From Synergistes sp. (GTDB lineage Bacteria; Synergistota; Synergistia; Synergistales; Synergistaceae): a stretch of DNA of 37,866 nt. Location: NCBI GenBank assembly GCA_030531745.1, contig JAUNMU010000004.1, forward strand, positions 1-37,866, written 5' to 3'. Under the pieces are notes generated by a model. It ran no database searches, was not told the DNA's origin, and saw only the letters and a list, made by a program, of their open reading frames with translations. Within the stretch, counting starts at the first letter, position 1. Each line of letters begins with the position of its first letter. Below are positions 15,634-37,692 of this stretch, piece by piece. Both the position numbers and the translations under genes were made by a program.

Positions 15634-15651
15634 TGTACATTTCCCCCATAC

Positions 15652-16998: not shown

Positions 16999-17040
16999 AA
17001 TATATGCCCCCTCTTTTAGGCGTTACCGTCTATATTGTAC

Positions 17041-17068
17041 ATTTTAGTGATTAATAATAAAAGTCCAA
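17041..17068 (-). promoter_or_regulatory. Candidate internal promoter for ftsA-ftsZ
   Basis: TTGGAC (17068-17063) and TAAAAT (17046-17041) are separated by 16 bases on the minus strand, in the only sizeable gap inside the dcw cluster. A second -10-like TACAAT follows at about 17033-17038. Separate promoters for ftsAZ are common in other bacteria. Confidence 0.45.
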
Positions 17069-17085
17069 ATCTATTGCAAAAATTA

Positions 17086-18823: not shown

Positions 18824-20238
18824 CTCTGCATTTCTGCCAGTTTTTCCAGTATTTTTTTGCCAAGCGTTCCGACAGAACCGGCTCCGAGTGTCAGTATTAT
18901 GTCTCCGCATTTTGCAGAACGGCATACGGAGCTTATAAGATCTTCAAAGTCTTCCGAAAGTTCATAGTGCGACCGCGTATCATCGTCCGCAGCATCAAGT
19001 ATAAGCTTTGACGATACTCCGTCTATGGGCTGTTCATCGGAGCCGTATATCGGCAGTATAAATGTTCTGTCGGCAAGCGACAGCGCCCGTGCAAATTCTT
19101 TATACAACGCCGCAGTACGGCTGAAACGGTGAGGCTGGAATATAGCGACAACTCTTCGCCCTCCAAAAATTTTACGAATCGTTGAAAGCGTTGCGGTAAT
19201 TTCGTTGGGGTGATGTCCGTAGTCATCATATATGAGTATATTGTCAATTTCACCTGTCTTTTGCAGACGGCGCTTTGCCCCGCCGAAATATTTCAGCCCC
19301 TGTACGATCTGTTCATGAGGTATGCCCATTTCATAACACGCGGCGTATGCTGCAAGAGAATTAAGTACATTGTGATCCCCTGATACGGAAAGTTCAACAT
19401 CTCCGACTTCTTCCCCATCATGCAGCAGTGTATATGAAACACCGCCTCCCTCACGATGGTTCACATCGGCAGCACCCCAGTTATGATTATTTCCGTATCC
19501 GTACGTTATGATCTGAGTCTTAATTTTATATTCCTCGCGCAGTTTTCTTATCCCCGCATCTTCCATACAAAGGATTGTTTTGCCGCTTTCCTTGACGTTG
19601 CTTAAAAATTCATCAAATGCGTCGGTAACCGACTTAAATGTCATATAATGATCCCTGTGATCCCAATCTATGTTTGTCACTACCGCTATTTCAGGATGGA
19701 AATAGACAAAAGAGCGGTCACTTTCATCAAGCTCTGCCGCCATATATTCTCCCTTGCCTAATTTTGCGTTCGTTCCAAGCTGAAGCACTTCACCGCCTAT
19801 GGCTATGGTAGGGTCAATCCCTGCTTTCTCCGCAACAAGCGAGATCATTGAAGATGTCGTCGTCTTACCGTGAGTTCCGGCGACACCGACACCGCGGCGT
19901 TCGTTAAAAATTTTGCTTAATATCTCTGCTCTTCTTGCTACCTGTATTCCGCGCTGCCATGCTTTTAATATTTCGGGATGATCCTTCGGCAGCGCACTTG
20001 AATAGACTACGATATCAGGCATAAATTCATCTATGTGTCTTGTGTCATGACCCTTCATAACGGGGATCCCCGCATCTTCAAGACGTCTTGCATACGCAGT
20101 GCTGACAAGGTCGCACGCAGACACACGCGCTCCTATCTTATCCAAAAGTATCGCAAGAGCGCTCATTCCGGCTCCGCCTGCACCCATTAAATGAATATTT
20201 TTCCCTTTGAGACCTTCATCTAAAATCTTCATACTCAT
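18820..20238 (-). CDS. murC: UDP-N-acetylmuramate-L-alanine ligase
   Basis: MurC adds L-alanine to UDP-MurNAc with ATP. The N-terminal UDP-binding motif MGAGGAGMS is at about 18-26, and the P loop GTHGKTT is at 121-127; histidine in this loop is the MurC-specific form. DDYGHHPNEI (about 335-344) is the family-specific C-terminal motif. Length 472 is normal. ATG 20238 directly follows GGGGCGG, and the ATG two codons later may be the real start. Its stop overlaps murB by ATGA. Confidence 0.97.
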   Translation of the reverse strand: MSMKILDEGLKGKNIHLMGAGGAGMSALAILLDKIGARVSACDLVSTAYARRLEDAGIPVMKGHDTRHIDEFMPDIVVYSSALPKDHPEILKAWQRGIQVARRAEILSKIFNERRGVGVAGTHGKTTTSSMISLVAEKAGIDPTIAIGGEVLQLGTNAKLGKGEYMAAELDESDRSFVYFHPEIAVVTNIDWDHRDHYMTFKSVTDAFDEFLSNVKESGKTILCMEDAGIRKLREEYKIKTQIITYGYGNNHNWGAADVNHREGGGVSYTLLHDGEEVGDVELSVSGDHNVLNSLAAYAACYEMGIPHEQIVQGLKYFGGAKRRLQKTGEIDNILIYDDYGHHPNEITATLSTIRKIFGGRRVVAIFQPHRFSRTAALYKEFARALSLADRTFILPIYGSDEQPIDGVSSKLILDAADDDTRSHYELSEDFEDLISSVCRSAKCGDIILTLGAGSVGTLGKKILEKLAEMQR

Positions 20239-20250
20239 CCGCCCCTATTT

Positions 20251-21330
20251 TTATTTACATTCCCGGCAATTCCATATTTCGTCCCACAATCTGCTGCAAA
20301 CAGCCTCTCTGTGATTGTAAGGCGATACGCACTTTGTCCCCGATTTTTCGCCTATCCCCGACAACACATCCGCAAGTCTGCTCTCCATCTCATCCTCTTT
20401 AAGCATAATTCCATTGTTTTCTTTCACAAACAGCTGCGCATTTTTTAGCTGATGGTTATCTGTCGCTCTGCTGCACGGTATCACGACAGCCGGTATTCCA
20501 AGTTCCCTTGCTTCCGCAAGAGTTGATCCGCCGGCCCTGACGACAAGCACATCGGCAAGAGAATATAAGAGCGATGTATTCCACACTCTCGGCAGCAATA
20601 TCACATTATCCGAAGGACGTTCCGGCATCTCCGTAACGGCAGGAAGTACAAATGTCCACTCTCTGAGCATCTCCGATTCGGCAATTTTACATATTATGTT
20701 CTTTACGGATACACTGCCGAGCGATCCTGTAAAGACAACGGCAATTCTGCCTGTCGGTACGCACTCGCCCAACCCCAAATCTCTCCATGCGGCGGCGCGT
20801 TCAATAATGTCAAAGTTTCTGACAGGGATACCCACGTATTTATATCTATTTTTCTTGATGGGTACGCACTCGTTCCATCCGCTCAATACGAGAATACCGT
20901 TTTTTGAAGCAAAGCGCGTAACTCTCCCTGCATATACATTCTGTTCGTGTATGAGGCAACGCACTTTGTACTTTTTGCACGACAGCATTACGGGAAAAGA
21001 GAGATACCCTCCGAAAAGCAGTGCTGCATCGGGCTTAAAAGAATCTACGCCTTTCCGCGCTTTTTGAAATGCAGAGACCATGCAGCCAAACCTCTTAAAT
21101 TTTTCAGCAACATCTCCTGAGAGGGGAGATCCCTCTATAGGCAGCACAAAAGGGTCAACTCCGGCAGCCTTATATATATCAAGTTCCAGCCGGCGCGCCC
21201 CGCACATATACCGCACGGCACACTCCGGATGATTTTCACTCACCCACATACCAAACGACAAGGCCGGCCATATATGACCGCCGGTACCGCCTGCCGCAAG
21301 AATAAGCCTCTTCATAACATCTGCTTTCAT
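20251..21330 (-). CDS. murG: UDP-GlcNAc:lipid I transferase
   Basis: MurG adds GlcNAc to lipid I, forming lipid II on the inner face of the membrane. GGTGGHIWPAL near the N terminus is the signature loop, IHEQNVYAGR matches the EQN motif, and RAGGSTLAE (about residue 265) is the UDP-GlcNAc site. The open frame runs on to 21519, but the extra 63 residues overlap ftsW and look non-coding. ATG 21330 overlaps the ftsW stop as ATGA and gives 359 residues, the usual length. Confidence 0.95.
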   Translation of the reverse strand: MKADVMKRLILAAGGTGGHIWPALSFGMWVSENHPECAVRYMCGARRLELDIYKAAGVDPFVLPIEGSPLSGDVAEKFKRFGCMVSAFQKARKGVDSFKPDAALLFGGYLSFPVMLSCKKYKVRCLIHEQNVYAGRVTRFASKNGILVLSGWNECVPIKKNRYKYVGIPVRNFDIIERAAAWRDLGLGECVPTGRIAVVFTGSLGSVSVKNIICKIAESEMLREWTFVLPAVTEMPERPSDNVILLPRVWNTSLLYSLADVLVVRAGGSTLAEARELGIPAVVIPCSRATDNHQLKNAQLFVKENNGIMLKEDEMESRLADVLSGIGEKSGTKCVSPYNHREAVCSRLWDEIWNCRECK

Positions 21331-22466
21331 GCCATATCTGCCCCCATACGGCTTTCCTTTTCCAACCGCAGAAGCATACCGACCCTTGCCCACATAGTAA
21401 CAAGTGACGTTCCTCCGTAGCTCAAAAAAGGCAGAGCCATTCCCGTAAGCGGTACCATCTTTGTAACTCCTGCGACATTTATTGCAAGCGGCAGAATTAC
21501 GGTGAGCGCAATTCCCCATGTCATAGCAGCTTCAAATCCGCTTCCTGTTCTGAAATATGTGACGCGCGTCTGAGCAAACCAAAATGCAAACAGCCCGATT
21601 ACGCACAGAGTTCCGGCAAGACCTAACTCTTCTCCCACAGCGGCAAATATAAAATCAGTGTACGCGGCGGGAAGATAATTTAATTTTTGGAATCCGTGTC
21701 CGAGACCCATTCCCCACATTCCGCCGTTTGCAAACGCTATAAGCCCCTGTATTGCCTGATAACCCTTATCAAGCGGATCCGACCACGGATCCAAAAAGGC
21801 GGTGATTCGCCTCATTCTGTACGGCTCAAATATAATCAGCAGCGGCAGCGTAATGCCAAGCAGCACGCCGCCTATTATGACGGGATAGCGCCAGCAGATT
21901 CTCTCAACATAGATACCCATTGCAACGGCAGATACAAGCACCATCGTACCAAGGTCAGGCTGACAGAGCAGCGGGATAGCACATATTACCGTAAGTAAGC
22001 CGACCCTTACAAAGCTCTTAAATTCGTATGATGCCGCATCATACTTTGAAAGAAGCTTTGACACATGAAGTGCTACGGCAAGACAGAGCAATTCCCCCGG
22101 CTGTATTGACATACCAAGCCCGGGTATTCTCACCCAGCGTCTTGCGCCGCCTATTGACTCACCTACTCCCGGAATAATAGGCAGCCATGCGAATACCCAC
22201 ATACACACGAGAATGACACCGGACCACTTGTACCAGAATTTCAGCGGCACGAGATAGACCACATACATTCCCGCCATCGCCACACCAAGCCAGGTCAGCT
22301 GCTTTATCCCCATCTGAAACGGCGTTCCCGTGTTCACAAATGATGTGGGGCTTGTCGTGGAAGTTATCACAAGGATACCTATTCCGCTCAAAATCAAAGG
22401 CACAAGCCACAGAAAGGGATTTACCGAAAATTTTTCAATTTCTCCGGGGATGTCACGCTCAAACAT
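21327..22466 (-). CDS. ftsW: Lipid II polymerase FtsW (SEDS family)
   Basis: This 379-residue SEDS glycosyltransferase has about 10 predicted membrane segments. GARRWVRIPGLGMSIQPGEL and LCQPDLGTMVLV carry conserved family residues, and the C-terminal PFLSYGGTSLVTMW is the SEDS signature. Its place between murD and murG makes FtsW, the partner of FtsI at the septum, more likely than RodA or SpoVE. It starts 1 base after the murD stop and overlaps murG by ATGA. Confidence 0.95.
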   Translation of the reverse strand: MFERDIPGEIEKFSVNPFLWLVPLILSGIGILVITSTTSPTSFVNTGTPFQMGIKQLTWLGVAMAGMYVVYLVPLKFWYKWSGVILVCMWVFAWLPIIPGVGESIGGARRWVRIPGLGMSIQPGELLCLAVALHVSKLLSKYDAASYEFKSFVRVGLLTVICAIPLLCQPDLGTMVLVSAVAMGIYVERICWRYPVIIGGVLLGITLPLLIIFEPYRMRRITAFLDPWSDPLDKGYQAIQGLIAFANGGMWGMGLGHGFQKLNYLPAAYTDFIFAAVGEELGLAGTLCVIGLFAFWFAQTRVTYFRTGSGFEAAMTWGIALTVILPLAINVAGVTKMVPLTGMALPFLSYGGTSLVTMWARVGMLLRLEKESRMGADMA

Positions 22467-22467
22467 T

Positions 22468-23835
22468 TTACTCTTCTCTTTCTATTATTCCCTTTGCTAT
22501 CGCGCAAAAATGTTCGCCGCGCACATTATAGCTCTTATACATATCCCAGCTTGTGCATGCCGGAGAAAGAAGGATCGTATCTCCCGCCTCAGACATTGAA
22601 TATGCAATATTCACGGCATCTTCCATATCCGATGCGAGCCTGTAGTTTTCTACACCGACAGAAGCAAGTGCTGCGGCTATTTTTTCTTTTTCGGCTCCCA
22701 AAATGACAGCGGCCTTTGTATAATTTTTAACAGCTTCGGCAAGCGGCGCATAATCCTCGCCCTTTCCCTGACCGCCGAGTATAATTATCTTGCTTCCGTC
22801 AAGAGACGTCATCGCCGTTATTGTCGCAGCAACATTCGTACCCTTTGAGTCATCAACAAAAGTTACGCCGTTGACACTTCCGGCAAACGCACAGCGATGT
22901 TTCGGCGGCGTATATGAACCTATAACATCAGACGACACATCCGACACGTTAAAAATCTCAAGAGCGCCGAGTGCCATCGCCGTATTTTCAAGATTGTGCT
23001 TTCCGAGAAGTTTTACATCGTCAAAACAGAACATTTTATGCTTTATATGATCTTCTGCATCGTTTATCCACACAGCGTGAAGTTCTTCGTCAAGGCAGAT
23101 TCCCCGAACTTCCGCTTCGCACTTATTCCATGAAAGCGGAAATTTACGCACGCATTCTTTTATCTTCAGCGCATCTTCATCGCGCTTCTGATAGATCGCA
23201 GAACCTCCCTCCGCGACACATCTGATAATATTTGCCTTTGCTGCAACATAATTTTCGTAGGAGCCATGCCAGTCTATGTGGTCGGGCGCAAGATTCGTCA
23301 CGACGGCAAGGTCGCACTTAAATTCCTTTGCCCAATGCAACTGAAAGCTTGATAGTTCAAGGACAACAAAATTATACGACTTGTCCGCGGCGTGTACTGC
23401 CGCGTTTCCGATATTTCCACCCGTCATTACGGAATAACCCATCTTTTCAAGATAATATCCTATCATTGAAGTCGTGGTCGTCTTGCCGTTGCTGCCGGTA
23501 ACGCCTATCACGGTCCCGTTAAGGTATGGAGAGATAAAATCAAGTTCCCCTGTTATCTTTACATTTTTCTCACGCGCATCTTTGAGTATGGGAATGTCAG
23601 GCGATATGCCGGAGCTTACGAGTATTTCGTCTGCTTCAAGCACACGGAGCGTATTTCCGCCATCTTCCCAACTGATTTTTTTACTTTCAAATGCTTTTTT
23701 TACATCTGTGCCGATTTCCTTTTTATCGGAGACAAATACGTCCGCTCCATGCTCTTGAGCAAACTCAGCAAGCGCCTGTCCGCTTACGCCGGCTCCTATT
23801 ACGGAAATTTTTCTTCCTTTTAGTTCACACGCCAT
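22468..23835 (-). CDS. murD: UDP-MurNAc-L-alanine-D-glutamate ligase
   Basis: MurD adds D-glutamate to UDP-MurNAc-L-Ala. The P loop GSNGKTTTT lies at about 114-122, the Rossmann start is VIGAGVSGQ, and the late motifs FVDDSKGTN and ILGGQGKGEDY are MurD-specific. LLSPACTSWDMY near the C terminus is also typical. ATG 23835 is preferred over GTG 23844 because GGAG stands 8 bases upstream of it. Length is about 455 residues. It lies 23 bases after mraY and 1 base before ftsW. Confidence 0.97.
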   Translation of the reverse strand: MACELKGRKISVIGAGVSGQALAEFAQEHGADVFVSDKKEIGTDVKKAFESKKISWEDGGNTLRVLEADEILVSSGISPDIPILKDAREKNVKITGELDFISPYLNGTVIGVTGSNGKTTTTSMIGYYLEKMGYSVMTGGNIGNAAVHAADKSYNFVVLELSSFQLHWAKEFKCDLAVVTNLAPDHIDWHGSYENYVAAKANIIRCVAEGGSAIYQKRDEDALKIKECVRKFPLSWNKCEAEVRGICLDEELHAVWINDAEDHIKHKMFCFDDVKLLGKHNLENTAMALGALEIFNVSDVSSDVIGSYTPPKHRCAFAGSVNGVTFVDDSKGTNVAATITAMTSLDGSKIIILGGQGKGEDYAPLAEAVKNYTKAAVILGAEKEKIAAALASVGVENYRLASDMEDAVNIAYSMSEAGDTILLSPACTSWDMYKSYNVRGEHFCAIAKGIIEREE

Positions 23836-23858
23836 TTTATCCACTCCGTTCTTTCAAA

Positions 23859-24806
23859 TCATATCAACGTGAAAATCAGTAAAAGAGACAACATGCCAAC
23901 TATGTGTATCAGCCAAAAGCGTGCCACTATTTTTGTCTCTTTCCAACCGCACAATTCAAAGTGATGATGCACGGGACTCATTTTGAAAATCTTCCTATGA
24001 AAGTGCCGTATTGCAACTATCTGAATAAAGACCGTAAATATCTCTATCCCGAACATAAAACCAAGCGGAAACACCGCCGGCACAGAACCGGAGGTAAGAC
24101 AAACAGTCAATATGAGAGCCGCAAGGAAGTGTGAACCAACGTCTCCCATAAAGACAGATGCCGGATGTGAATTGTGCCACAGAAAACCGAGAGATACACC
24201 GCAGCCCATTGCGGCAATTATCATTGCATCGGCATTTTCGCAAAGTACGAACAAAGCACCTACAAATGAAAAGAGCGAACACCCAACCGCAAGTCCGTCC
24301 AGTCCATCCGTAACATTCACCGCATTGAGCAGTCCGACGCCAATAAATGATACTGCCGCGACATAGACGGGATAGGAAACTTCAACATAAGGCAATATGA
24401 TATACGGAGGCACAGCGGCATAAGATACGCATGGCACGGTAACTGCGATTTGAAGGAACAACTTCTGCATACTTGTAAATCCGTCGGAAGATCTGCGCAA
24501 GTGCTTCAGCAGGTCATCCGCAAATCCTACGGCTGCTGCCGCAATAGGATACGTCACACAAAGCAGGACTTCGGTAAAGCTCCAAAATCCGCTCACGCAC
24601 AGAATTATTGCAACGATCACCGCAACCGCGACAAAGACAACACCGCCCATCTCAGGCGTACCGAGTTTATTTTCCTCATGCCATTTGGGACCGTACAGCT
24701 TCGTCACCTGTTCAAGCTTCATCTTACGCATGGCATCTATCCAAAATCTCTGAATCGTGATCTCAAGGAAAAATGCCAAAAGGGCAATAGCTATGAGATA
24801 TATCAA
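23859..24806 (-). CDS. mraY: Phospho-MurNAc-pentapeptide translocase
   Basis: MraY transfers phospho-MurNAc-pentapeptide to undecaprenyl phosphate, making lipid I. This polytopic membrane protein of 315 residues carries GFADDLLK (the DDxxK catalytic pair), NVTDGLDGLA, MGDVGSHFLAA and the MSPVHHHFELCGW histidine loop, all hallmarks of the family. The start codon is TTG, overlapping the murF stop as TTGA, with GGAGG 7 bases upstream. It is somewhat shorter than E. coli MraY (360). Confidence 0.96.
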   Translation of the reverse strand: MIYLIAIALLAFFLEITIQRFWIDAMRKMKLEQVTKLYGPKWHEENKLGTPEMGGVVFVAVAVIVAIILCVSGFWSFTEVLLCVTYPIAAAAVGFADDLLKHLRRSSDGFTSMQKLFLQIAVTVPCVSYAAVPPYIILPYVEVSYPVYVAAVSFIGVGLLNAVNVTDGLDGLAVGCSLFSFVGALFVLCENADAMIIAAMGCGVSLGFLWHNSHPASVFMGDVGSHFLAALILTVCLTSGSVPAVFPLGFMFGIEIFTVFIQIVAIRHFHRKIFKMSPVHHHFELCGWKETKIVARFWLIHIVGMLSLLLIFTLI

Positions 24807-26197
24807 CTTGCCGCCTCCATATACTTGTCGGTTATATATGAAAGACCGTAAGAGTTTGATCCCTTAACAAGCACAACGGCACCGTCCGTCTCCGAGTAAT
24901 TCAGAATAGCATCAATATCCGCAAGACAATCGCACAAAAGCGCTTTGTTTGGCAATTCTCCGCACGTTTTCCACTCATCTCCGAGCAGCACGATCTTGTC
25001 AAAATCACTTACTTCACTCAATATTTTTTCATGCCACACGGCACTTTCTCTTCCAAGCTCCCTCATACCCGCCAAAACAGCACGTTTTTCAAGTCCCATA
25101 TTTTCCGCCAAAGAGCGCGTATTGCATATTGCCATACTCATTGCCGCAGGACTTGCATTATATGCTTCATCTACAAGCCAACCGCCGCCGGAAAGTCTGC
25201 GGCACACACCATGCCCCGAAACAGCTCTCGCATTCGCAAGACCGTATCTCGCTTCGTCCGGTGAAAGCCCCATTTCAACGGCTGCCGCAAACGCAAGCGC
25301 CATATTATACGCATGCTGCACACCGAAGAGATGTGACAAAAGTGTTAATTTTTCATTTTTATATTCAATATCCGCCAAGACAGAGACGCCGCCGCTCTCC
25401 GCCGTGATTTTCGCATCCTTTATCACAACATCACAGCATGATCTCTTACCTACCGAAATTTTTTTCTTTCCCTCAAGTCCGGCAGAGAAATATTCCGCAA
25501 GCAGCGTGTTATCGCCGTTATATGCCACAGCCGACAATCCGGAATGTCTGCATATTTCCGTTTTCTCTCTCAGCACACCGGACATTGTCCCGAAATTTTC
25601 AAGATGACACGGCGCAACCTCAGTTATCACCGCAACATCGGGGGGAAAGAGCCCCACAAGTTTTGCGATCTGACCGAAATTATCCGAGCCAAATTCAAAG
25701 ACAATAGCTTCCATATCCTCCGGCATAGTAAGAACACCAAATGAACAGCCCAAAGGTGTGTTGTAATTTTTGATCGCCGTGTGTACCTTGTATTTTTCAC
25801 GCAGCGCCGCGCTTATGAGTTCGCGCGTCGTGGTTTTGCCCACACTTCCGGTAACCGCTGCCGATTTCGGCGCAACTCTTCTGTAATATTCTTTTGCCAG
25901 CTTAAGATATGCGTCCTCGCTGCCGTTTACCGTTATGAATGATACATTTGGAAATTCACTGACAAAATCACCGCGGCAGAAAGCATATTCTTCCATCATG
26001 ATAAGTTCCGCACCGCGCTCTGCCGCGCTCCTTACATAATCGTTTCCGTCTGTATTCGCGCCCCTCACAGCAAGAAATGCACTGCCTTTTTTCACTTCGC
26101 GGCTGTCAAACACCCACTCACGGCAAACGGGAACATCACGTCCGAAGCTTCTGCCTCCGCATATAGCAGCACCCTCGCAGCTTCCGAAAGATTTCAT
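24803..26197 (-). CDS. murF: UDP-MurNAc-tripeptide-D-alanyl-D-alanine ligase
   Basis: MurF adds D-Ala-D-Ala to the UDP-MurNAc-tripeptide. GSVGKTTTRE is the P loop (about 117-126), and YNTPLGCSFG, VDEAYNASPAAM and LGDEWKTCGE match the central and C-terminal MurF motifs. I use ATG 26197, which overlaps the murE stop as ATGA and gives 464 residues; the frame is open a further 10 codons. No ddl gene, which would supply the dipeptide, is present in this window. Confidence 0.96.
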   Translation of the reverse strand: MKSFGSCEGAAICGGRSFGRDVPVCREWVFDSREVKKGSAFLAVRGANTDGNDYVRSAAERGAELIMMEEYAFCRGDFVSEFPNVSFITVNGSEDAYLKLAKEYYRRVAPKSAAVTGSVGKTTTRELISAALREKYKVHTAIKNYNTPLGCSFGVLTMPEDMEAIVFEFGSDNFGQIAKLVGLFPPDVAVITEVAPCHLENFGTMSGVLREKTEICRHSGLSAVAYNGDNTLLAEYFSAGLEGKKKISVGKRSCCDVVIKDAKITAESGGVSVLADIEYKNEKLTLLSHLFGVQHAYNMALAFAAAVEMGLSPDEARYGLANARAVSGHGVCRRLSGGGWLVDEAYNASPAAMSMAICNTRSLAENMGLEKRAVLAGMRELGRESAVWHEKILSEVSDFDKIVLLGDEWKTCGELPNKALLCDCLADIDAILNYSETDGAVVLVKGSNSYGLSYITDKYMEAAS

Positions 26198-27702
26198 TTC
26201 ACTATTTCCTTTCCATTGATTTTGCACCAGTCTGCCACGATTTCCCTGTCCACAAGAGGCACAGAACCGTTTTTCAATATCTGATGCGTTTCGGGACCGC
26301 GTCCGGCTATAACCACAATGTCGCCTTTGCCTGCGCGTGAAAGACCTTCATATATTGCCTCTCTCCTGTCCGTAATAGCGGTGTGGGCACGATTTACTTT
26401 CTTCACTCCTGCCGCAATTTCTGAAATTATGACATCGGGATCCTCGGAACGCGGGTTGTCGGATGTGACTATGACATCATCGGCAAGCCTTCCGGCAATC
26501 TCTCCCATAATGGGACGCTTGCTTTTATCCCTATCTCCGCCGCAGCCGAATACAACGGAAAGAACACCGCGGCATACAGGCCTGACAGCATTCAGTACCT
26601 TTTCCAATCCATCCGGAGAATGAGCAAAATCTATCACACACGCTGCTCCGCTGTCAAAACCGTAACGCTCAAGACGACCTGGGATCTGAGGCATTTTACT
26701 CATAGCATTAAGGGCAATATCAGCCGGAACTCCCAAAGAATATGCAAGCGAAACCGCCTGCAACATATTCAGCACATTATACGAGCCGAGCAACGGAAGA
26801 CGTACAATATCTTTCTTTCCGATACAGCCAATATTTACCTCCACGTCAAGGCCACCGATACCGATCTTTGTTATCCTTGCAAAAAAATCCGCCTTTTCGT
26901 CCGTCATACTGTAGGTCATTGACCTTTCGCCCAAAGCACGGCAAAGCCTCCTGCCGTACTCATCGTCAATGTTTACCGATGCTGACCAATCGCTCTTCAT
27001 AAATCTGTCAAAAAGAGATTTTTTCGCGAGGAAATAATTTTCCATGTTCCCATGATAATCAAGATGCTCTATCGTAAGGTTCGTAAACCCACCGCGGTCA
27101 AAATATGTACCGTTTATCCGTCCCTGCATTATCGGCTGTGATGCCGCTTCCATAACACACGCACCGCATCCGTTTTTAACCATCTCGGCAAGAAGTGCCT
27201 GAATGTCACAGCCCTCCGGAGTAGTGTGCGCGGCTTCACGCACATTGCAGCCGTCATCATAATTGACAGTGCCTATTATTCCCGTCTTTATTCCGGCACT
27301 CTGCAAAATATTCTGCATCATAAACACCGATGTTGTCTTTCCGTTTGTGCCTGTCACTGCGATCATCTTCAACTTCTTTGAAGGCTCGCCGTATAAAAGC
27401 GATGCGGTCTCACCCATTGACGCACGCACGTTTTTGCATATTATCTGAGGAATTTCAAAATCAATTTTGCGTTCACACAACACAGCCGATGCACCGTCCC
27501 TTACGGCACACGGCACAAAGTCATGCGCGTCCGAGTGTTCTCCCTTTGTGGCGGCAAATATATTTCCGGCACGGACATTTCGGCTGTCACAGACCATATC
27601 ATTCAACTCAATCTCTTCCGCGTGAAACCCATCGGGCATATAAATTTGATGTGCCATATTGTTTTTTTCAAGAAGATAAATCAGTTCATCAAGCCTCATC
27701 AC
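26194..27702 (-). CDS. murE: UDP-MurNAc-L-Ala-D-Glu:meso-diaminopimelate ligase
   Basis: MurE adds the third residue of the stem peptide. The P loop GTNGKTT is at 118-124, and the amino-acid selectivity motif DNPR (415-418) is the form found in meso-diaminopimelate ligases, so this organism should build mDAP-type peptidoglycan. TNLTIEHLDYHG and FAHSPDGLEKVL are typical. The start is GTG 27702 or ATG 27699, with AAGGGG just upstream. Length 502 is normal. Confidence 0.97.
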   Translation of the reverse strand: MMRLDELIYLLEKNNMAHQIYMPDGFHAEEIELNDMVCDSRNVRAGNIFAATKGEHSDAHDFVPCAVRDGASAVLCERKIDFEIPQIICKNVRASMGETASLLYGEPSKKLKMIAVTGTNGKTTSVFMMQNILQSAGIKTGIIGTVNYDDGCNVREAAHTTPEGCDIQALLAEMVKNGCGACVMEAASQPIMQGRINGTYFDRGGFTNLTIEHLDYHGNMENYFLAKKSLFDRFMKSDWSASVNIDDEYGRRLCRALGERSMTYSMTDEKADFFARITKIGIGGLDVEVNIGCIGKKDIVRLPLLGSYNVLNMLQAVSLAYSLGVPADIALNAMSKMPQIPGRLERYGFDSGAACVIDFAHSPDGLEKVLNAVRPVCRGVLSVVFGCGGDRDKSKRPIMGEIAGRLADDVIVTSDNPRSEDPDVIISEIAAGVKKVNRAHTAITDRREAIYEGLSRAGKGDIVVIAGRGPETHQILKNGSVPLVDREIVADWCKINGKEIVK

Positions 27703-27718
27703 TTATATCCCCTTCCGA

Positions 27719-29443
27719 TTACCGCAAACTGTTTTCAACCTTAAGACTCCTCGTTGCGTCCCTGCCTTGACTTTGAACTATATCCTCGGCTATTGCCTTA
27801 AAGATAGGCGCTGCGATCTGTCCGCCGTAATATCTTGTGCCCTTCGGCTCTCCTATGTTTATGACCATCACATATTTAGGCTTATCCGCGGGCCAAAATC
27901 CGGCAAACGATGCGACATACTGACCTTTTTTATATTGTCCGGAGGTTGCTATCTGCGCTGTGCCTGTTTTTCCCGCGATTCTGACCTTATCCGACTTCGC
28001 CTGTTTTCCTCCGCCTTCGGATACGACCATAGCCATAGCATGCCTCAAAAATGCCGCTGTTCCTTCGGACATAACATTGTAACGCACGCGCCGTGTGCCT
28101 TTATGGACGACATTACCGTAACTGTCGCGAACTTCCCCTATAACGTAAGGTTTAAGGAGCTTTCCGCCGTTCACTATACTTGAAATCGCCATAACAACCT
28201 GTATCGGAGTAACCCCTATCCCCTGACCTATAAATATATTCGCGGGAACCGTACCGAGCCATTCCTCCGGCTCTTTCATAAGCCCTGCTTCCTCGCCCGC
28301 TATCTCAACATCGGATTTTTCGCCAAATCCGAACTGTCTTAACATTCCGTAAGCCTCATACTTGGGCACTCTCATTGACATAAGCGACATGCCTATATTG
28401 CAGGAATTCATAATAACGTGAGTCACATCTTGAAATCCGTGCGCCCTTTTGTTCACATCATTCATTGTCTTATCAAACAGCTTCATCGTGCCGTGACACA
28501 TAAATGTTGAATTTCTTGACACGTTTCCGCTTTCAAGTGCTATTGCGGTCACTATAGGCTTAAAGATAGATCCCGGCTCAAATACGCGCCCGACGACATT
28601 GTTGCGCACCGCGTTCTCGTCTGAGAGCGACTGCCTCTTGTTGGGATTCAAAGTCGGATAGCTTGCCAAAGCAATGATTTCGCCTGTGTATGGGTCAACA
28701 CAAACTCCGGCCGCCCATGAAGCATCGGCATTCTTCGCACCCTCAGCAAGACGAAGTTCCATGATCTGTTGGATCCCCGAGTCTATGGTAAGACGCATTG
28801 AGGAGGCATTAAGCTTTGTAGGTGCCTGTGCGCCTCCTATGATCTCAACTCCGCGGCCGTGCGAATCCCTTGCAACAAACCGCGTGCGCGGCGGAGAATA
28901 AAGCAGAGAATTCCATTCAAGCTCAACCCCTGCCTGTCCAAGCTGATCTATATCACAAAAACCGATAAGGTGAAACGCAAGCGAATCATGCGGATAATTT
29001 CTGCGAATCTCTGTAACCGTGTAAAGCCCCGGAATTTTTTTATCTATAACTCTATCCGCTACACTCTTAGGCAAATTGCGCTTAACCCAATGAAATCTGC
29101 CCTCCATCGGCCTTGAAAATTTATCGGCTGTCTCTCTGCCAAACGCCTCTGCAAGAAAATCCGCGCTCGCCGGATCCCAGTACATCGGATCAATGAAAAA
29201 ACTTGTCGTAGGCACCGATACGGCAAGCGGCACTCCCCATCTGTCGGTGATAGTGCCTCTTGTAGCGCCCTCCGATATATTCGCCCAATACTGCTTCTGC
29301 GACTGCTGTGAAATTCTCTTGTCCGGGACAAGATGAGCCTTTGCTGTACCTAAAAGCAACACCAAAAGAATCAGGTACACCAATACCCACACCAACTTAT
29401 TCTTCCTTATTCCATTATCTTCCCGTCTTCTAATCCTCGGCAT
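27719..29443 (-). CDS. ftsI: Penicillin-binding protein, septal transpeptidase
   Basis: This class B penicillin-binding protein cross-links septal peptidoglycan. Counting from ATG 29443, a single membrane anchor lies at about 15-37, the dimerisation/pedestal region follows, and the transpeptidase motifs are all present: SIFK at 292-295, SCN at 347-349 and KTG at 492-494. There is no PASTA domain. The frame opens at TTG 29458, but ATG 29443 overlaps ftsL by 14 bases and gives about 574 residues. Position between ftsL and murE identifies it as FtsI. Confidence 0.95.
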   Translation of the reverse strand: MPRIRRREDNGIRKNKLVWVLVYLILLVLLLGTAKAHLVPDKRISQQSQKQYWANISEGATRGTITDRWGVPLAVSVPTTSFFIDPMYWDPASADFLAEAFGRETADKFSRPMEGRFHWVKRNLPKSVADRVIDKKIPGLYTVTEIRRNYPHDSLAFHLIGFCDIDQLGQAGVELEWNSLLYSPPRTRFVARDSHGRGVEIIGGAQAPTKLNASSMRLTIDSGIQQIMELRLAEGAKNADASWAAGVCVDPYTGEIIALASYPTLNPNKRQSLSDENAVRNNVVGRVFEPGSIFKPIVTAIALESGNVSRNSTFMCHGTMKLFDKTMNDVNKRAHGFQDVTHVIMNSCNIGMSLMSMRVPKYEAYGMLRQFGFGEKSDVEIAGEEAGLMKEPEEWLGTVPANIFIGQGIGVTPIQVVMAISSIVNGGKLLKPYVIGEVRDSYGNVVHKGTRRVRYNVMSEGTAAFLRHAMAMVVSEGGGKQAKSDKVRIAGKTGTAQIATSGQYKKGQYVASFAGFWPADKPKYVMVINIGEPKGTRYYGGQIAAPIFKAIAEDIVQSQGRDATRSLKVENSLR

Positions 29444-29840
29444 GAGCTGTGTCCACAAAAGGATTCATATTCGCCAAAAATCCTTTGTCCTTTGCCGCAC
29501 GCACTTTCTTAGGAGACACAGCCGCAATTTCAGCCATCCTCACCTTTATGCACCGAATATTTTCTGCGTTTTCCATTCCGAGATTATTTCTCGCATAAGT
29601 ATAGATTCTCGCCGGAGTAAGCATCTGCGAATATTCACGGGACAAATCAGCGTTGCGTTCCCTACATTCCTCAATCTTATGCGTAGTTTCCGATATTCTG
29701 TGTTCAAGATAAAGCCCATAAAGACGTATCGTACCCAACACCGCCGCGCACACAAAAAGACATATACAGCTTGACACAAAAAACACAGAATGATGTTGCT
29801 CTTCTTCGTGCTTAAACTCACTGTTCCTTGCTTGTCTCAT
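29430..29840 (-). CDS. ftsL: FtsL-like divisome protein
   Basis: This small bitopic protein of 136 residues has a short charged cytoplasmic tail, one membrane helix (about 20-40 from ATG 29840), and a periplasmic heptad-like coiled coil (LEHRISETTHKIEECRERNA), ending in a basic tail. FtsL/DivIC family proteins form a complex with FtsQ and activate FtsWI. The sequence is poorly conserved, as usual, so the call rests on topology and position between rsmH and ftsI. ATG 29840 overlaps the rsmH stop as ATGA. Confidence 0.8.
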   Translation of the reverse strand: MRQARNSEFKHEEEQHHSVFFVSSCICLFVCAAVLGTIRLYGLYLEHRISETTHKIEECRERNADLSREYSQMLTPARIYTYARNNLGMENAENIRCIKVRMAEIAAVSPKKVRAAKDKGFLANMNPFVDTAHAED

Positions 29841-30763
29841 ATCCCCGAATTCTCCTCGCATTCATACTTGCGAAATATCATCATCTTCGCGCTTCTTGCC
29901 TTATAATTCTCCGCAACTTCATCTTCGGTCGGAAGAATCGGCTTCTTAGGGGTGATCTCACCCTTCTTTTCGTCTCTCCATCTCCTAAAGTGCAGCTTTG
30001 TCATCTTTTCTTCAAGCGAATGATAAGATATAACGACTATCTTCCCCTTGGGCTTCAAAATTTTCAAAGCCCCATCCAAAGCCTCATCAAGGGCATTTAT
30101 CTCGTCGTTCACAGCGATACGGAGCGCCTGAAAAATCTTCCTCGCGGGATGCCCTCCCATCTTACGCTGCAAAGGCTCCGGAAGGATCTTCCTCACAAGC
30201 GCGACAAGCTCTCCCGTAGTATTCAAAGTGCCTCCGTATTCACGGTAACGCACGATGCCCTTTGCTATCTGAAACGCATTGCGCTCCTCGCCGTAATCTC
30301 TGAATATCTTTGTAAGCCTGCTAACATCGGCATTCGCCAAAATATCGGCGGCATTTACGCCTATTGCCTCTTCTCCGCTCTCCATTCTCATATCAAGAGG
30401 ACCGTTGATTTGAAAAGAAAAACCTCTTTCGCCCTCCGTCAACTGCATATTTGAAACACCTAAATCAAAAAGGACAAAATCCGCTCCGTGAAAATCGCTT
30501 CTCAAAGCAAGATCCGAGATATTTCTGAAATTATCAGCTATGATCTCAAAGCGCGGCGCAAACGGCGCAAGACGCAGAGAGGCAATCTCTCTTGCCGCAG
30601 CATCTCTGTCAAAACCATAAACGAAAGCGCATTCGTACCTTTCAAGTATTGCCGCGCTGTGTCCTCCGAGACCCAAAGTCGCGTCTGCGACACAGATGTC
30701 ACTTTTGTCATCATCAATCGCAGCAAGCGTCTCTTTAAGCATTACAGAGATATGTTCTTTCAT
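29837..30763 (-). CDS. rsmH: 16S rRNA (cytosine(1402)-N(4))-methyltransferase
   Basis: RsmH (MraW) methylates N4 of C1402 in 16S rRNA using SAM. DATLGLGGHSAAIL (about 27-40) is the SAM-binding loop, VLFDLGVSNMQL (about 95-106) is motif IV, and HPARKIFQALRIAVNDE and YHSLEEKMTK are family signatures. Length 308 matches the family. The start overlaps the mraZ stop (ATGA), and the stop overlaps ftsL in the same way. Confidence 0.97.
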   Translation of the reverse strand: MKEHISVMLKETLAAIDDDKSDICVADATLGLGGHSAAILERYECAFVYGFDRDAAAREIASLRLAPFAPRFEIIADNFRNISDLALRSDFHGADFVLFDLGVSNMQLTEGERGFSFQINGPLDMRMESGEEAIGVNAADILANADVSRLTKIFRDYGEERNAFQIAKGIVRYREYGGTLNTTGELVALVRKILPEPLQRKMGGHPARKIFQALRIAVNDEINALDEALDGALKILKPKGKIVVISYHSLEEKMTKLHFRRWRDEKKGEITPKKPILPTEDEVAENYKARSAKMMIFRKYECEENSGI

Positions 30764-31185
30764 ATCTCATCCAATTCCTCTGCTATACTGCTGAAATCGT
30801 CAAGCACTTCTGTACGGTGTTCATTCCACTTATCGCTGTCCCAAACCTCCAAGTGATCTTCGGACCCGATAAGCGTCACATCGGACACGATCTCGCCGTA
30901 CTCTCGCAAAATCTGCGGTATAAGGATTCGCCCTGCTCCGTCAATCTCAAGCTCGCTTGCCATTGACAAAAGCACCCTGCGAAAATCCCTTGTTTTCTTC
31001 TTAAATGACGACAGATCTTTCAGCTTAACAAGCAATTCTTCCCAACGCGAAACGGGATAAAGCGTAATACAGCGGTCAATGCCTATAGTCGCAACGACAG
31101 ACGCGCCAAGCTCCCCACGAAACTTCGCGGGCAAAACCATGCGCCCCTTGCCGTCTAACCTATGACAGAAACTTCCCACTAACAT
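30760..31185 (-). CDS. mraZ: Transcriptional regulator MraZ
   Basis: MraZ is an AbrB-fold DNA-binding protein with two tandem repeats. Both DxxGR motifs are present: DGKGRMVLPAKFR (about 10-22) and DGAGRILIPQILREY (about 79-93). It forms a ring and represses its own dcw operon. This is the first gene of the cluster. Its promoter carries repeated AAAGTG boxes (31183-31234), the nearest of which includes the ATG, consistent with autoregulation. GGGGTG serves as ribosome site. Length 141 is normal. Confidence 0.97.
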   Translation of the reverse strand: MLVGSFCHRLDGKGRMVLPAKFRGELGASVVATIGIDRCITLYPVSRWEELLVKLKDLSSFKKKTRDFRRVLLSMASELEIDGAGRILIPQILREYGEIVSDVTLIGSEDHLEVWDSDKWNEHRTEVLDDFSSIAEELDEI

Positions 31186-32221: not shown

Positions 32222-34567
32222 TTATTTTCTTTCCGTCTCTTTTGTATTTTCCCGAAAAAGACGATCTATTTCTTCTTCGGTCATCTGATGTATTGTATCA
32301 CTTGCTTTGTCTCTCAGACGTTCGGCAAGCCTTGTGTAGCGTACTTTGGTGCTGTCATTTCGTACCGCGATTTGCAAGGCTTTTTTTGTTCCGACTATGA
32401 CAACGAGTTTTTTGCCGCGTGTGATTGCAGTGTAGAGCAGATTGCGCTGAAGCATCACATAGTGCTGAGTAAGCAGCGGTATTACGACCGCAGGATACTC
32501 AGAGCCTTGTGATTTATGTATTGATACCGCATAAGCATGGACAAACTCTTCTGCTTCGGAAAATTCATAATGCACCGTGCCTGTGTCCATTTCAACCGTT
32601 ATCGTCTCATCGTCGGCGCTGATCTTTGTTATCGTGCCGATGTCACCGTTATATACGTCTTTGTCGTAATTGTTTTTTGTCTGCATAATTTTGTCTCCCT
32701 CTTTGAATGTATGTTCAAGACGTGTGAGGGAAGCGCCGTTTCGGGTGTTTAATATTTTTTGCAGTTCCGCATTAAGATGTCTGGTGCCGAGCGTTCCGTT
32801 GTGCATCGGAGCCAAAACCTGAATGTCGGTTATCGGGTCAAAGTTGAATCTGCGAGGAATATTTTCAGATACGAGTTTTTTGATCGTTGCAAGAACTCTT
32901 TCCTGAAATAATGCCGTGTATTCGTCCTCTGTTATGCCGCTTTTTTCAATGCGCGGTTCTATAAAGTAAAAGTCGGAGAGTTCCTTGCTCTGATCATCGG
33001 GAAGAAGGGGCATAAGTCCGTCGTTTATCCTGTGTGCGTTGATTATTATACGGCTTTCTTTGCCTTGACGGAAAATTTCGTTCAGTTTAACTATGGGGCA
33101 GACCTCGGATTCTATAAGATCTTTCAGGACGTTGCCCGGGGATACTGAGGGAAGTTGATTGACGTCACCGACAAGTATGAGCGATGCGCTTGCGGGTATT
33201 GCTTTCAAAAGATGATGAAAGAGTATTATATCCACCATAGACGCTTCATCTATTATGAGCAGATCGCATTTAAGCCGATTCGTGCTGTTGCGCATAAATG
33301 TGCCGGTCGCGCCTGTGATGTCTCCGGCAGTGCCTGTGTATTCAAGAAGACGGTGAATCGTCTTTGCCTCGTGCCCTGTTGCCTCGGCCATTCTCTTTGC
33401 CGCGCGTCCCGTGGGGGCAGCAAGCATTACGGTGTAGCCTTCCTTTTCCCGCAGCGAGAGAACGGCGCGGATTATCGTTGTCTTTCCTGTGCCCGGGCCT
33501 CCGGTTATTATCATTACTTTTGAGTTCACAGCGCACTTTATGGCATTTATCTGAGCTTCTGCGAATTTTATGCCGACTTCACGTTCAAGCCACGGAAGCA
33601 CTGCCGCACAATCTACATATTGGCTGTTGTACGGCTCGCAGACCAACGACCTGAGATTCTCGGCTGCCTTTGTCTCTGCGTAGTGAAATGCCGGCAGATA
33701 TACGGCAGTGTCATTTTTGCCGTCCTTATCCGTGAAGTCCTCAACTATAATCTCTTCGCTCAGGCGTGCTGCTTCAATTCCGGCACGTGCCTGCTCAAGT
33801 GTTACGGAAAGTGTACGCGCCGTGTGCGCCGCAAGAAGGTCAATAGGAATATAGACGTGTCCCTCTGTTACAAGCTGATTCAATGTAAATTGGACACCGG
33901 CTCTTATGCGCAGCGGTGAATCTGCTTCTATGCCGAAATTCTTTGCTATTTTGTCTGCTGTGGCAAAGCCTATGCCTGCCACTTCGGATGCAATTCTGTA
34001 TGGATTTTCTGTCAGTGCCGCCTCTGTTTGAGAGCCGTAGCGGTTGAATATGCGCATTGCGAAACCTGTGCCGATGCCGTAGCTGTGAAGAAAAATCATC
34101 ACTTCGCGTATGTTGCGCTGTTCTGCCCATGCTTCACCGATTTTCTCCGCTTTATTTCTGCTTATGCCGCTTACCTCCGCAAGCCTGTGCGGTGCTTCGT
34201 TAAGAATCGTAACGGTCTCGTCTTTGAATTTTTCTGTGATTTTTTTCGCCGTTGCTGCGCCTATGCCGTGAATTATTCCGGAGGCAAGAAATTTTTCAAT
34301 CCCGTCAGAGGTTGCGGGAATTGCCGATGTACATTCCGATGCTTGAAATTGCACGCCATACTTTGGATTTTTTACCCAGATGCCGCGCATAACAAGGCGT
34401 TCTCCTTGAGCGGGTTCCGGCATATTGCCTATTGCCGTCACGGGTTCGCTGTGTCCGTGCACACTTAAGCGGAGAACGGTGTAACCATTCTCCGCATTAT
34501 GAAATATTACTTTTTCCACATCGCCTGTAAGTTCCGTGGAAGGTGTCTTTTTTTTTGTATCTGACAA
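32222..34567 (-). CDS. recD2: ATP-dependent DNA helicase RecD2
   Basis: This SF1B 5'-3' helicase has 781 residues. The N-terminal region carries helix-hairpin-helix repeats (GIGAATAKKI near 101, then GISRNKA and GIGFATADKI), typical of RecD2 and absent from RecBCD-type RecD. The Walker A is GGPGTGKTT (356-364), motif II is DEAS (440-443), and the last helicase motif AYAVSIHKSQGSEYP is near the C terminus. RecD2 works in repair and replication-fork stability without RecB or RecC. The start is TTG 34567, with GAGG 8 bases upstream, 11 bases after the amidohydrolase stop. A run of nine A residues falls in codons 4-7. Confidence 0.95.
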   Translation of the reverse strand: MSDTKKKTPSTELTGDVEKVIFHNAENGYTVLRLSVHGHSEPVTAIGNMPEPAQGERLVMRGIWVKNPKYGVQFQASECTSAIPATSDGIEKFLASGIIHGIGAATAKKITEKFKDETVTILNEAPHRLAEVSGISRNKAEKIGEAWAEQRNIREVMIFLHSYGIGTGFAMRIFNRYGSQTEAALTENPYRIASEVAGIGFATADKIAKNFGIEADSPLRIRAGVQFTLNQLVTEGHVYIPIDLLAAHTARTLSVTLEQARAGIEAARLSEEIIVEDFTDKDGKNDTAVYLPAFHYAETKAAENLRSLVCEPYNSQYVDCAAVLPWLEREVGIKFAEAQINAIKCAVNSKVMIITGGPGTGKTTIIRAVLSLREKEGYTVMLAAPTGRAAKRMAEATGHEAKTIHRLLEYTGTAGDITGATGTFMRNSTNRLKCDLLIIDEASMVDIILFHHLLKAIPASASLILVGDVNQLPSVSPGNVLKDLIESEVCPIVKLNEIFRQGKESRIIINAHRINDGLMPLLPDDQSKELSDFYFIEPRIEKSGITEDEYTALFQERVLATIKKLVSENIPRRFNFDPITDIQVLAPMHNGTLGTRHLNAELQKILNTRNGASLTRLEHTFKEGDKIMQTKNNYDKDVYNGDIGTITKISADDETITVEMDTGTVHYEFSEAEEFVHAYAVSIHKSQGSEYPAVVIPLLTQHYVMLQRNLLYTAITRGKKLVVIVGTKKALQIAVRNDSTKVRYTRLAERLRDKASDTIHQMTEEEIDRLFRENTKETERK

Positions 34568-34578: not shown

Positions 34579-36204
34579 CTATTTAATGTATCTGATTTTT
34601 CCGTCAACAACTGTCAGACCGATCTCAATTTTATCAATCTCTTCTTCATGGACAGTGAAAGGATCCTGCATACACGCAATGAAATCAGCAGCCTTGCCTT
34701 TTTCAAGCGTGCCGCGCCACGCAAGTTCACCGCAGACATTTGATCCTCCGCTTGTGTAAACTGCAAATGCCTCAACTCTGTCAAGACGCTGCGATGGAAT
34801 CCAACCGTGTTCCGGCTTACCGCGTTTATCACGGCGAGTCATTGACGTGACAATGCCCGTAAAGGGATCTGACGGTGCGATGGGGGCATTTGATCCGGCG
34901 CCGACCGGAATTCCGGAAGCTATCATTGTTTTCCATGCGTAGCTGCTTCTCGCACGTTCTGCACCGAGTCTTGACATAATAATGCTCCAGTCCGATGAAA
35001 TAAATACAGGCTGAATATCCGCCATTACGCCAAGTGTCACCATGCGTGCGCAAAGATCATCCGGCATCACCTGACAGTGAATTATTCTGTGCCGAACGTG
35101 GCTGTGCGTTTTATTTGCCGCGTACTCAACAGCGTTTAATGAACGCTCTATGGCTCCGTCACCGACTGCACAGAATGCAACAAGCATACCGGCCTCCTGT
35201 GCCAAAGCCGTCATTTCGTTGAGTTCTTCCTGTGTGTGTAAATATACGCCTCTGTTTCCCGGATCATCGTTGTAGTCCTCGCGAAGTGCAGCTGTGTATG
35301 CGCCCAAAGAACCGTCTACCTGTATTTTCAGAGGACCGGAACGGAAATATCTGCTGTGTCTGAGGTGTGAGCCGTGTCGCACAAACTCCGACAATTCTTT
35401 TATATTTTGAAAGGGCCACTGCTCTGTAAGTCTCAGCGGAACTTTATCTTTTGCGTCAAGGTTTTCGTATAATGAAAATACTCTATCCGGGTCACCAACG
35501 ACTGCAACATCGTCTGTCTGTACGGATGTCACTCCGCGCTTTATAAGCTGCTGCGCGGCAAGCGAGAAACATCTTTCCAACGTATCTTCATTTACTTTCG
35601 GAATACGCATTTTTGTCCAATGTACTGCGGCTCCTCCCATAACTCCGTTCGGTTCGCCGTTGTCATCAAGAAACATTGTTCCTCCGTGGATTTCAAGATC
35701 CCGCGTTATTCCAAGCACCTCAATCGCCTTGCTGTTGAGAGAGACTACAGTTCCGCATGAGCGTTCAAACAACATCGGCATATCTGTTGAAATTTTGTCC
35801 AAATCATATCTGTTAGGATAACGCTTTTCTTCAAGTTTTTCCTCATTCCAGCCCACTGCATAAAGCCATCCGTTGTCTGCCGGAGAGTGAACGGCAAAAA
35901 ATTTCCTTGCCGCAGATATAATTCTGTTTATTGACGACACCCGAGAGAGATCCAGCATCTGTGCAGCGATTCCAGAAAGGAGAACGGAAATGTGCGTATC
36001 CGTAAAGCCGGGCAAAATGAATGCGCCCTTCATGTCAAGGACTATTGTCTTTGTATCGCACATTTTAAGAATATCCGCATTGCTTCCAACGCTTTCAATG
36101 ATACCCGCACGAGCAAAAAGTGCCTGAGCACGCCCGGGGTACGCCATGGGATAGATAATACCGTTTATAAGTGCGATAGAATCTGCTCGTGTAACATCCG
36201 GCAT
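34579..36204 (-). CDS. YtcJ-like amidohydrolase family protein with altered metal site
   Basis: The 541 residues match the Amidohydro_3/YtcJ family across their length: GFTDTH (66-71), NSKAIEVLGI, the KIQVDGSLGAYTAALRE lysine motif (K293), RHRIIHCQ (H376) and the C-terminal EKGKAADFI. Several expected metal or active-site residues are replaced. HxH is H71-I-S73, the GH after the RSC motif is T152, the His before the xGDGA motif is C345, and the catalytic Asp of GSD is N439. The carboxylated-lysine position and one His remain. It may use a different metal or have lost hydrolase activity. It lies between pepA and recD2 with short gaps. Confidence 0.8.
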   Translation of the reverse strand: MPDVTRADSIALINGIIYPMAYPGRAQALFARAGIIESVGSNADILKMCDTKTIVLDMKGAFILPGFTDTHISVLLSGIAAQMLDLSRVSSINRIISAARKFFAVHSPADNGWLYAVGWNEEKLEEKRYPNRYDLDKISTDMPMLFERSCGTVVSLNSKAIEVLGITRDLEIHGGTMFLDDNGEPNGVMGGAAVHWTKMRIPKVNEDTLERCFSLAAQQLIKRGVTSVQTDDVAVVGDPDRVFSLYENLDAKDKVPLRLTEQWPFQNIKELSEFVRHGSHLRHSRYFRSGPLKIQVDGSLGAYTAALREDYNDDPGNRGVYLHTQEELNEMTALAQEAGMLVAFCAVGDGAIERSLNAVEYAANKTHSHVRHRIIHCQVMPDDLCARMVTLGVMADIQPVFISSDWSIIMSRLGAERARSSYAWKTMIASGIPVGAGSNAPIAPSDPFTGIVTSMTRRDKRGKPEHGWIPSQRLDRVEAFAVYTSGGSNVCGELAWRGTLEKGKAADFIACMQDPFTVHEEEIDKIEIGLTVVDGKIRYIK

Positions 36205-36231: not shown

Positions 36232-37692
36232 CTACAGCCCTTTAAGAAGTTCTATTATCGTTCGTGTTCCAAAACCGGTCGCACCTTTCACATAGTAGCT
36301 GAACGGGTTCTCAACAAAATCTGTTCCGGCTATATCAAGGTGAATCCACGGAATATCCTTGTCAACAAAGGCTTCAAGGAACATCGCAGCCGTAATTGCA
36401 CCACCGTAGCGTCCGGCGGAATTTACCAAATCGGCAAACGGAGATTTTATCTGTTTGCGAAGATTGGGATCCGTCATCGGAAGCTGCCAGAATGACTCTC
36501 CGCTTCGCTTCGCCGCAGCAAGAAGCTTGTCCGCAAACTCTTGATTATTCGTGAATACCCCTGCCGTTGAATTGCCGAGGGCAACGGCGCAAGCTCCGGT
36601 AAGCGTGGCTATATCAAGTATGCAGTCGGGTTTCATCTCCGATGCGCAGCAGAGCGCGTCTGCAAGTGTGAGGCGTCCCTCAGCATCGGTATTGTTCACC
36701 TCTATCGTCTTGCCGTTCCTTGCGCGCAGAATATCATCGGGTCTGTATGCGCTGCCTCCTGGCATATTTTCAGCCGCAGCGGAAAGAGCCGTGACTTTCC
36801 ACGGAAGATCAAGCTGTGCGGCAGCGGCTATCGCTGCAAATACACAGCAAGCACCGGACTTATCTCCTTTCATCGTAAGCATAAAACTATCGGGCTTAAT
36901 ATTCAGCCCACCGCTGTCAAATGTAAGTCCTTTGCCGACTATAACAATATGCCCCTTTGGAGTACATTTCGGAGTATATGTAAGACGAATGAATCTCGGT
37001 TTGTTAGCAGATCCGCTGCCAACGGCAAAATACGCACCCATCTTTTCGGCCTCAATGCGCTTTTCGTCCCACACTTCATATTCAAGACAGAATTTATCCG
37101 CGAGCTTCCGAGCCTCTTCCGCAAGCGCCGACGGTGTTATGCGGTTGCCCGGTTCGTTTTCAATATCGCGTGCCCACATCTGTGCTTCTGCCGATATAAC
37201 GCCTTGCTTTACACTGTCAGGGTCAGCACCTGCTATTGTGATCTGCTCCGGCGAGCAGAAATTATCGTGTTCGTTCTTTGTTTTGTATTTATGAAAGCGG
37301 TAAGATGCAAGAGCCGCCCCTTCCGCGACCGCCGCAGAGCGCGCCGCGTCCTTTGGATCTTCAATGGTTATTGAAAGAGTTTTAACGCCTCTTTCGGCAG
37401 CTGCGCGTGCGGCACGAAATGACGCAGTACGCAGAGCATTGTTTTTATTGTATTCCTTGCCGTCTACGCCGGATATAAATACATAACGCACATTCCTATC
37501 TGCTGTCGGAATCGTCAGAAGAGAACCTTCCTCCGCGCTGAAATTTGCATTTACCGCTATCCTGCGGCACATATCCCGCATTTCTCCACGCAGCGGATCC
37601 AACGAAATGGACTCAGCTGTGCCTTTTTCAACGATAATTGCGATTCCCTGCATATCTTCTGCGTTTAAGTTTTCACATTGAAACTTTGTCAT
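36232..37692 (-). CDS. pepA: Leucyl aminopeptidase (M17)
   Basis: This 486-residue cytosolic metallo-aminopeptidase removes N-terminal residues from peptides. The M17 signature NTDAEGRL (334-341) is complete, and KGLTFDSGG (254-262) and MKGDKSGA (274-281) supply metal ligands and the catalytic lysine. The N-terminal roughly 160 residues are the usual less-conserved domain. GGAGG stands 9 bases before the ATG. It has its own extended -10 promoter at 37765-37773 and probably leads an operon with the amidohydrolase and recD2. Confidence 0.96.
   Translation of the reverse strand: MTKFQCENLNAEDMQGIAIIVEKGTAESISLDPLRGEMRDMCRRIAVNANFSAEEGSLLTIPTADRNVRYVFISGVDGKEYNKNNALRTASFRAARAAAERGVKTLSITIEDPKDAARSAAVAEGAALASYRFHKYKTKNEHDNFCSPEQITIAGADPDSVKQGVISAEAQMWARDIENEPGNRITPSALAEEARKLADKFCLEYEVWDEKRIEAEKMGAYFAVGSGSANKPRFIRLTYTPKCTPKGHIVIVGKGLTFDSGGLNIKPDSFMLTMKGDKSGACCVFAAIAAAAQLDLPWKVTALSAAAENMPGGSAYRPDDILRARNGKTIEVNNTDAEGRLTLADALCCASEMKPDCILDIATLTGACAVALGNSTAGVFTNNQEFADKLLAAAKRSGESFWQLPMTDPNLRKQIKSPFADLVNSAGRYGGAITAAMFLEAFVDKDIPWIHLDIAGTDFVENPFSYYVKGATGFGTRTIIELLKGL

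Follow-up and report, generated by a model that had tools for sequence, protein, structure and literature searches.

BwBSH1, a hydrolase of the YtcJ/COG1574 type, is a secreted and active metallo bile-salt hydrolase, in which alanine mutants of H110 and H112 (the HxH motif), K373, H441, H474 and D583 are all inactive; its H196 sits close to the amide bond that is cut (PMC13081902). The window that we analyzed, a contig stretch of 37,866 nucleotides from Synergistes sp., carries an open reading frame derived from ytcJ (34579..36204, minus strand) that retains some of the equivalent residues and has lost others. Inactive amidohydrolase homologues include the CRMPs and the non-catalytic dihydroorotases, which keep the fold without the metal ligands; their structural roles are known, and the inactive state is fixed clade-wide.

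A full-length YtcJ orthologue with an altered active site

The ytcJ-derived frame starts with ATG and encodes 541 amino acids without interruption, exactly the length of its orthologues. Its product matches PF07969 with an E-value of 9.9e-87 (spanning positions 2–472 of the 472 in the profile), and the AlphaFold model, computed with 26 homologues, has a pLDDT of 92.7 and a pTM of 0.88; among PDB folds, this model best matches 3icj and 3igh (TM-score by target 0.88). The window ORF is a true orthologue of the YtcJ-type (PF07969) metallohydrolases, and its full-length product is predicted to be well folded, in agreement with a sequence-only reading of the window that had described the family fold as clear. 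NCBIfam assigned the protein no specific function, a scan of genome contigs returned only distant relatives (25–36% identity), and a search of viral contigs found no relatives.

When compared with 3icj, 3igh and 22 syntenic orthologues, the window residues align to the HxH, H(152), K, HAIGD, H and TDS/SDAP columns. The HxH segment (codons 71–73, 35986..35994, minus strand) reads H-I-S, with H71 encoded by CAC and S73 by TCC. Codon 152 (ACT; 35749..35751, minus strand) specifies Thr for a conserved His, the equivalent by motif order of the auxiliary H196 of BwBSH1, and codon 293 (AAA; 35326..35328, minus strand) retains Lys at the position of the bridging carboxylated lysine. Codon 345 (TGT; 35170..35172, minus strand) encodes Cys, while the orthologue alignment identifies codon 376 (CAC; 35077..35079, minus strand) as the retained beta6 His and codon 439 (AAT; 34888..34890, minus strand) as Asn for the catalytic Asp of beta8. 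The open reading frame, its translation and the alignment thus bear out the frame, the coordinates and all seven residues as they had originally been read.

Correspondence of H71, S73, K293, C345, H376 and N439 to the six essential BwBSH1 residues was inferred from motif order, the direct alignment being to 3icj; on this basis three of the six required ligands are replaced, in addition to the auxiliary His. Among the features that define a YtcJ-type enzyme, the protein has the fold and profile, the bridging Lys (K293) and the beta6 His (H376), and lacks the beta1 HxH of the alpha-metal site, the beta5 His of HAIGD and the beta8 catalytic Asp. The rest of the sequence is well kept, as the earlier reading had also held: of 119 sites at which 19 orthologues do not vary, the window protein retains 106. 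Loss of catalytic residues together with retention of the fold, in this case a predicted one, is the pattern expected of a pseudoenzyme.

Nearby residues do not appear to make up for the losses, a possibility that the earlier reading had listed as one that would count against it: no His, Asp or Glu has been gained in the motif segments around positions 71–73, 345 and 439. The new Glu, His and Cys residues are E121, E122, H173, H195 and C345, with the gained Glu and His residues located outside the motif segments. D439N and Y345C can each be explained by a single nucleotide change; since H73S and H152T each require at least two, base-calling error is unlikely to account for the substitutions.

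Three of the replacements are confined to the window genome

The 22 full-length syntenic orthologues, which come from one family-level group and are 42–58% identical to the window protein, all keep H71, H73, H152, K293, H376 and D439. In a broader alignment (A1), position 73 is His, the HxH motif is present and position 439 is Asp in 26 of 26 homologues; 25 of these also have His at position 152, the remaining homologue having an unrelated Ile, and K293 is invariant. Among all homologues aligned, S73, T152 and N439 are found in the window genome alone. We rejected a family-wide trait as the source of the substitutions, the best seven homologues in order-level relatives being canonical at all sites.

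Position 345 differs in its history. The 17 closest orthologues (L017–L033, 55–58% identical) have Tyr here (YAIGD), while five more distant ones (42–44%) and homologues from other families of the order have His. Hence the earlier reading, which took the HxH motif, the GH position, the His before GDGA and the GSD Asp all to be altered from the family consensus, stands for S73, T152 and N439, which replace conserved residues, but not for C345: because the 17 full-length closest orthologues have Tyr, the event in the window protein was a change from Tyr to Cys, not from His to Cys. The replacement of His by Tyr at this position is an older change shared by the clade, whereas S73, T152, C345 and N439 originated on the branch leading to the window. 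As the sole member of its genus in the set, the window genome has no sister species for comparison, and its changes cannot be dated.

All other catalytic residues are retained in the Tyr345 clade, and the equivalent BwBSH1 mutant, H441A, is inactive. The partial orthologue L041, too, carries Tyr where the beta5 His would serve as a metal ligand.

The retention of K293 and H376 leaves room for a hydrolase that is still active, either through a beta-site metal alone, bound by K293, C345 and H376, or by a different mechanism. Cys is able to bind Zn, so that C345 could hold a metal, and the Tyr345 clade shows that the beta5 residue can change with the rest of the site kept. Nevertheless, a single Ala at any of the six BwBSH1 ligands suffices to kill activity, while three of the equivalents, including the catalytic Asp, are replaced here, and we regard continued hydrolysis as improbable.

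Gene order at the ytcJ locus and co-occurrence with cyuA

In the window, ytcJ lies 27 bp downstream of pepA, which encodes an M17 leucyl aminopeptidase with intact GKGxTFD and NTDAEGR motifs (36232..37692, minus strand), and 11 bp upstream of a recD2-type helicase gene (32222..34567, minus strand). This arrangement follows the family order pepA(M17)-ytcJ-(cyuA)-recD2: pepA adjoins ytcJ in 22 of 22 full-length syntenic orthologues and in both genomes of genus g9, and recD2 follows ytcJ directly or one gene later in the genomes examined. In several genomes a gene lies between ytcJ and recD2; in L089 and L099 it encodes a PF03313 protein (L089:70-1446, L099:196-1491) whose PDB match is the L-cysteine desulfidase CyuA (9fsl, E 2e-27). 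Judged by gene order and co-occurrence, the pepA-ytcJ-cyuA group probably serves cysteine or thiol-peptide catabolism.

All but two (G048 and G049) of the 22 genomes in which ytcJ is intact contain a full-length CyuA orthologue, at the locus or elsewhere. We found no CyuA orthologue in the window genome, whose sole PF03313 match is a distant one on contig C94 (a 522-aa frame, probably an ordinary serine dehydratase), nor in the g9 genomes G018 and G019, nor in G003, G016, G017 and G045. CyuA presence and absence is therefore 20/2 among genomes with intact ytcJ versus 0/7 among those in which ytcJ is eroded or absent (Fisher P 2e-5 by genome and 0.002 by genus, the genomes not being phylogenetically independent). 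In G014, which has an intact ytcJ, the cyuA homologue is broken by in-frame stops (C1:3194729-3196042); counting this genome as CyuA-less changes the table to 19/3 versus 0/7. Small genome size is a confounder that could drive the losses of cyuA and ytcJ independently.

Elsewhere in the window, a segment on the minus strand (7052-11705) carries the molybdenum cofactor genes moaC and moaA and two adjacent moeA-type genes, one of which has a PBP-like C-terminal domain; a single MoCF_biosynth protein is encoded at 4188-5012, and the genome as a whole measures 1.6 Mb. A cluster of division and cell-wall genes, running from mraZ to ftsZ, occupies 14296-31185 (minus strand) and includes, after murB, a 292-aa ORF (17086-17964) that has no Pfam match and is possibly a divergent FtsQ/DivIB.

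Erosion of ytcJ in other genera

The gene has degraded further in other genera that lack CyuA. Two species of g9 have truncated but open ytcJ frames of 423 and 422 amino acids at the same locus (L050:998-2266, minus strand, and L051:1001-2266, plus strand), in which about 120 residues (approximately 84–203) are deleted. H376 is Ser and position 345 is Gln in these proteins, D439 is kept, and the HxH motif has become HxR in one of the two. The truncation in g9 is independent of the changes in the window protein. Change between the g9 pair at codon positions 1, 2 and 3 amounts to 0.27, 0.23 and 0.55 (NG86: dN 0.315, dS 1.9), and because of this excess of third-position change, the truncated form may still be made as a protein. 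Its AlphaFold model was of too low confidence to be used (pLDDT 51).

In G003 (g4), G016 and G017 (g8) and G045 (g19), ytcJ is absent and pepA and recD2 are immediate neighbors, their protein matches lying only about 60–85 bp apart.

Faster evolution and probable residual constraint

Rates were estimated on a tree fixed from PepA and RecD2, the deep nodes of which are weakly supported. The basal place of the window sequence in the ytcJ gene tree was set aside as a long-branch effect, the PepA tree placing the window beside g21 and g7. On the fixed tree, the terminal branch of the window measures 0.76 changes per site for YtcJ, compared with 0.44 for PepA and 0.465 for RecD2. Relative to the summed intact tips, the window branch is 0.655 for YtcJ (5–95% range, 0.575–0.77) versus 0.32 for PepA and 0.39 for RecD2, a rate excess of 1.7–2 fold over the expectation from the flanking genes; dS is saturated for pairs that include the window. 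The corresponding ratio for the g9 branch is 1.57 for YtcJ versus 0.40 and 0.39 for PepA and RecD2, a four-fold excess.

This acceleration, the small genome and the absence of ytcJ from g4, g8 and g19 would all suit a recent ordinary pseudogene, in which constraint is gone entirely and the frame is open merely for lack of time. However, in a neutral simulation that allowed point mutations only and was generous to neutrality, the chance that the 541-codon frame stays open while four or more of the seven catalytic codons change never exceeded about 1e-3, whatever the duration, and two of the observed changes need two nucleotide steps each. Pure decay is therefore unlikely, and we give little credence to a simple pseudogene; constraint seems to have persisted after catalysis ceased to matter.

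Selection on the frame that outlives the catalytic loss, as the simulation suggests, is also what neofunctionalization would predict; here, the active-site changes would have been selected as the pocket took on a new metal, a new ligand or a role in binding (to PepA, for example). Among the conserved sites, catalytic positions have changed disproportionately often (Fisher P 0.017–0.021; the lower value is for 3 of 6 catalytic versus 10 of 113 other invariant sites) with the rest of the fold kept, E121, E122, H173, H195 and C345 are new, and the second lineage, g9, likewise keeps its frame with substitutions concentrated at third positions. On the other hand, the new residues are seen in a single genome with no sister species in which they are fixed, the rate increase is spread across the protein, and ytcJ is degraded or deleted in the other cyuA-less genera, leaving a selected new function with a rather low probability in our judgment.

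The sequence-only reading had argued for selection for a new role, and this claim is not supported. Because S73, T152 and N439 are unique to one genome, the protein evolves faster, cyuA is absent, and the same gene is degraded in other cyuA-less genera, the pattern is instead one of relaxed constraint. That reading had itself named substitutions unique to the strain and accompanied by relaxed selection as evidence against a new role; this is nearly what we find, and yet selection on the protein seems to have outlasted the constraint on catalysis.

A proposed history of the window ytcJ

The explanation that we favor, and consider reasonably probable, is that the window gene encodes a hydrolase that was inactivated after the loss of its pathway and is still weakly constrained, making it a pseudoenzyme candidate. 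In this scenario, cyuA, and with it the CyuA pathway, would have been lost in a small-genome lineage, upon which constraint on YtcJ catalysis would have relaxed and ligand losses accumulated: H73 and D439 of the alpha-metal site would have gone, together with the auxiliary His152, and at the beta site the Tyr of the clade at position 345 would have given way to Cys. Binuclear metal chemistry would thereby have been lost, and a folded protein left under purifying but weakened selection, either as a remnant that no longer catalyzes but has some minor role, or as a gene on its way out. Counting against this history are G048 and G049, which have an intact ytcJ and no CyuA, and the interrupted cyuA of G014.

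A related scenario, which we hold to be possible but not likely, is that genera g1 and g9 each lost YtcJ activity separately once the cyuA pathway had gone, and that both kept the protein for a non-catalytic function, such as pairing with the neighboring M17 aminopeptidase or regulating it. If this is true, the locus would record a repeated transition from enzyme to pseudoenzyme, caught at intermediate stages, from an ancestor that already carried Tyr instead of His at the beta-metal ligand position.

One conserved locus thus offers a graded series: a canonical site, Tyr at the beta-metal position, a full-length protein that has lost another three conserved catalytic residues, a truncated protein, and absence of the gene, with every eroded or absent case in a genome without the cysteine desulfidase. 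Such a series makes it possible to test how the gene for an enzyme is lost or reused after its pathway goes, and hints that a YtcJ subgroup to which no function has been assigned acts in the context of cysteine or thiol-peptide breakdown.

Comparison with known systems

The window protein and BwBSH1 belong to the same PF07969/COG1574 family and share the Lys and the beta6 His; they differ in that BwBSH1 has six essential ligands, whereas three of the six equivalents are replaced in the window. Similarly, the Pyrococcus proteins 3icj and 3igh, uncharacterised metal-dependent hydrolases of the YtcJ type, resemble the window protein in fold over the whole length (26% identity), but are canonical at the HxH, K, HAIGD, H and Asp positions. 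L017–L033 are equal in length to it and, like it, are neighbored by pepA and (mostly) recD2; they differ in keeping H73, H152 and D439 and in having Tyr at 345. The g9 orthologues share with the window protein the locus, the lack of cyuA, the loss of metal-site residues and an open frame, and depart from it in the large deletion and in having lost H376 while keeping D439. Finally, the window protein is like the CRMPs and the non-catalytic dihydroorotases in that the amidohydrolase fold is (predicted to be) kept and ligands are lost, although its changes are found in one genome.
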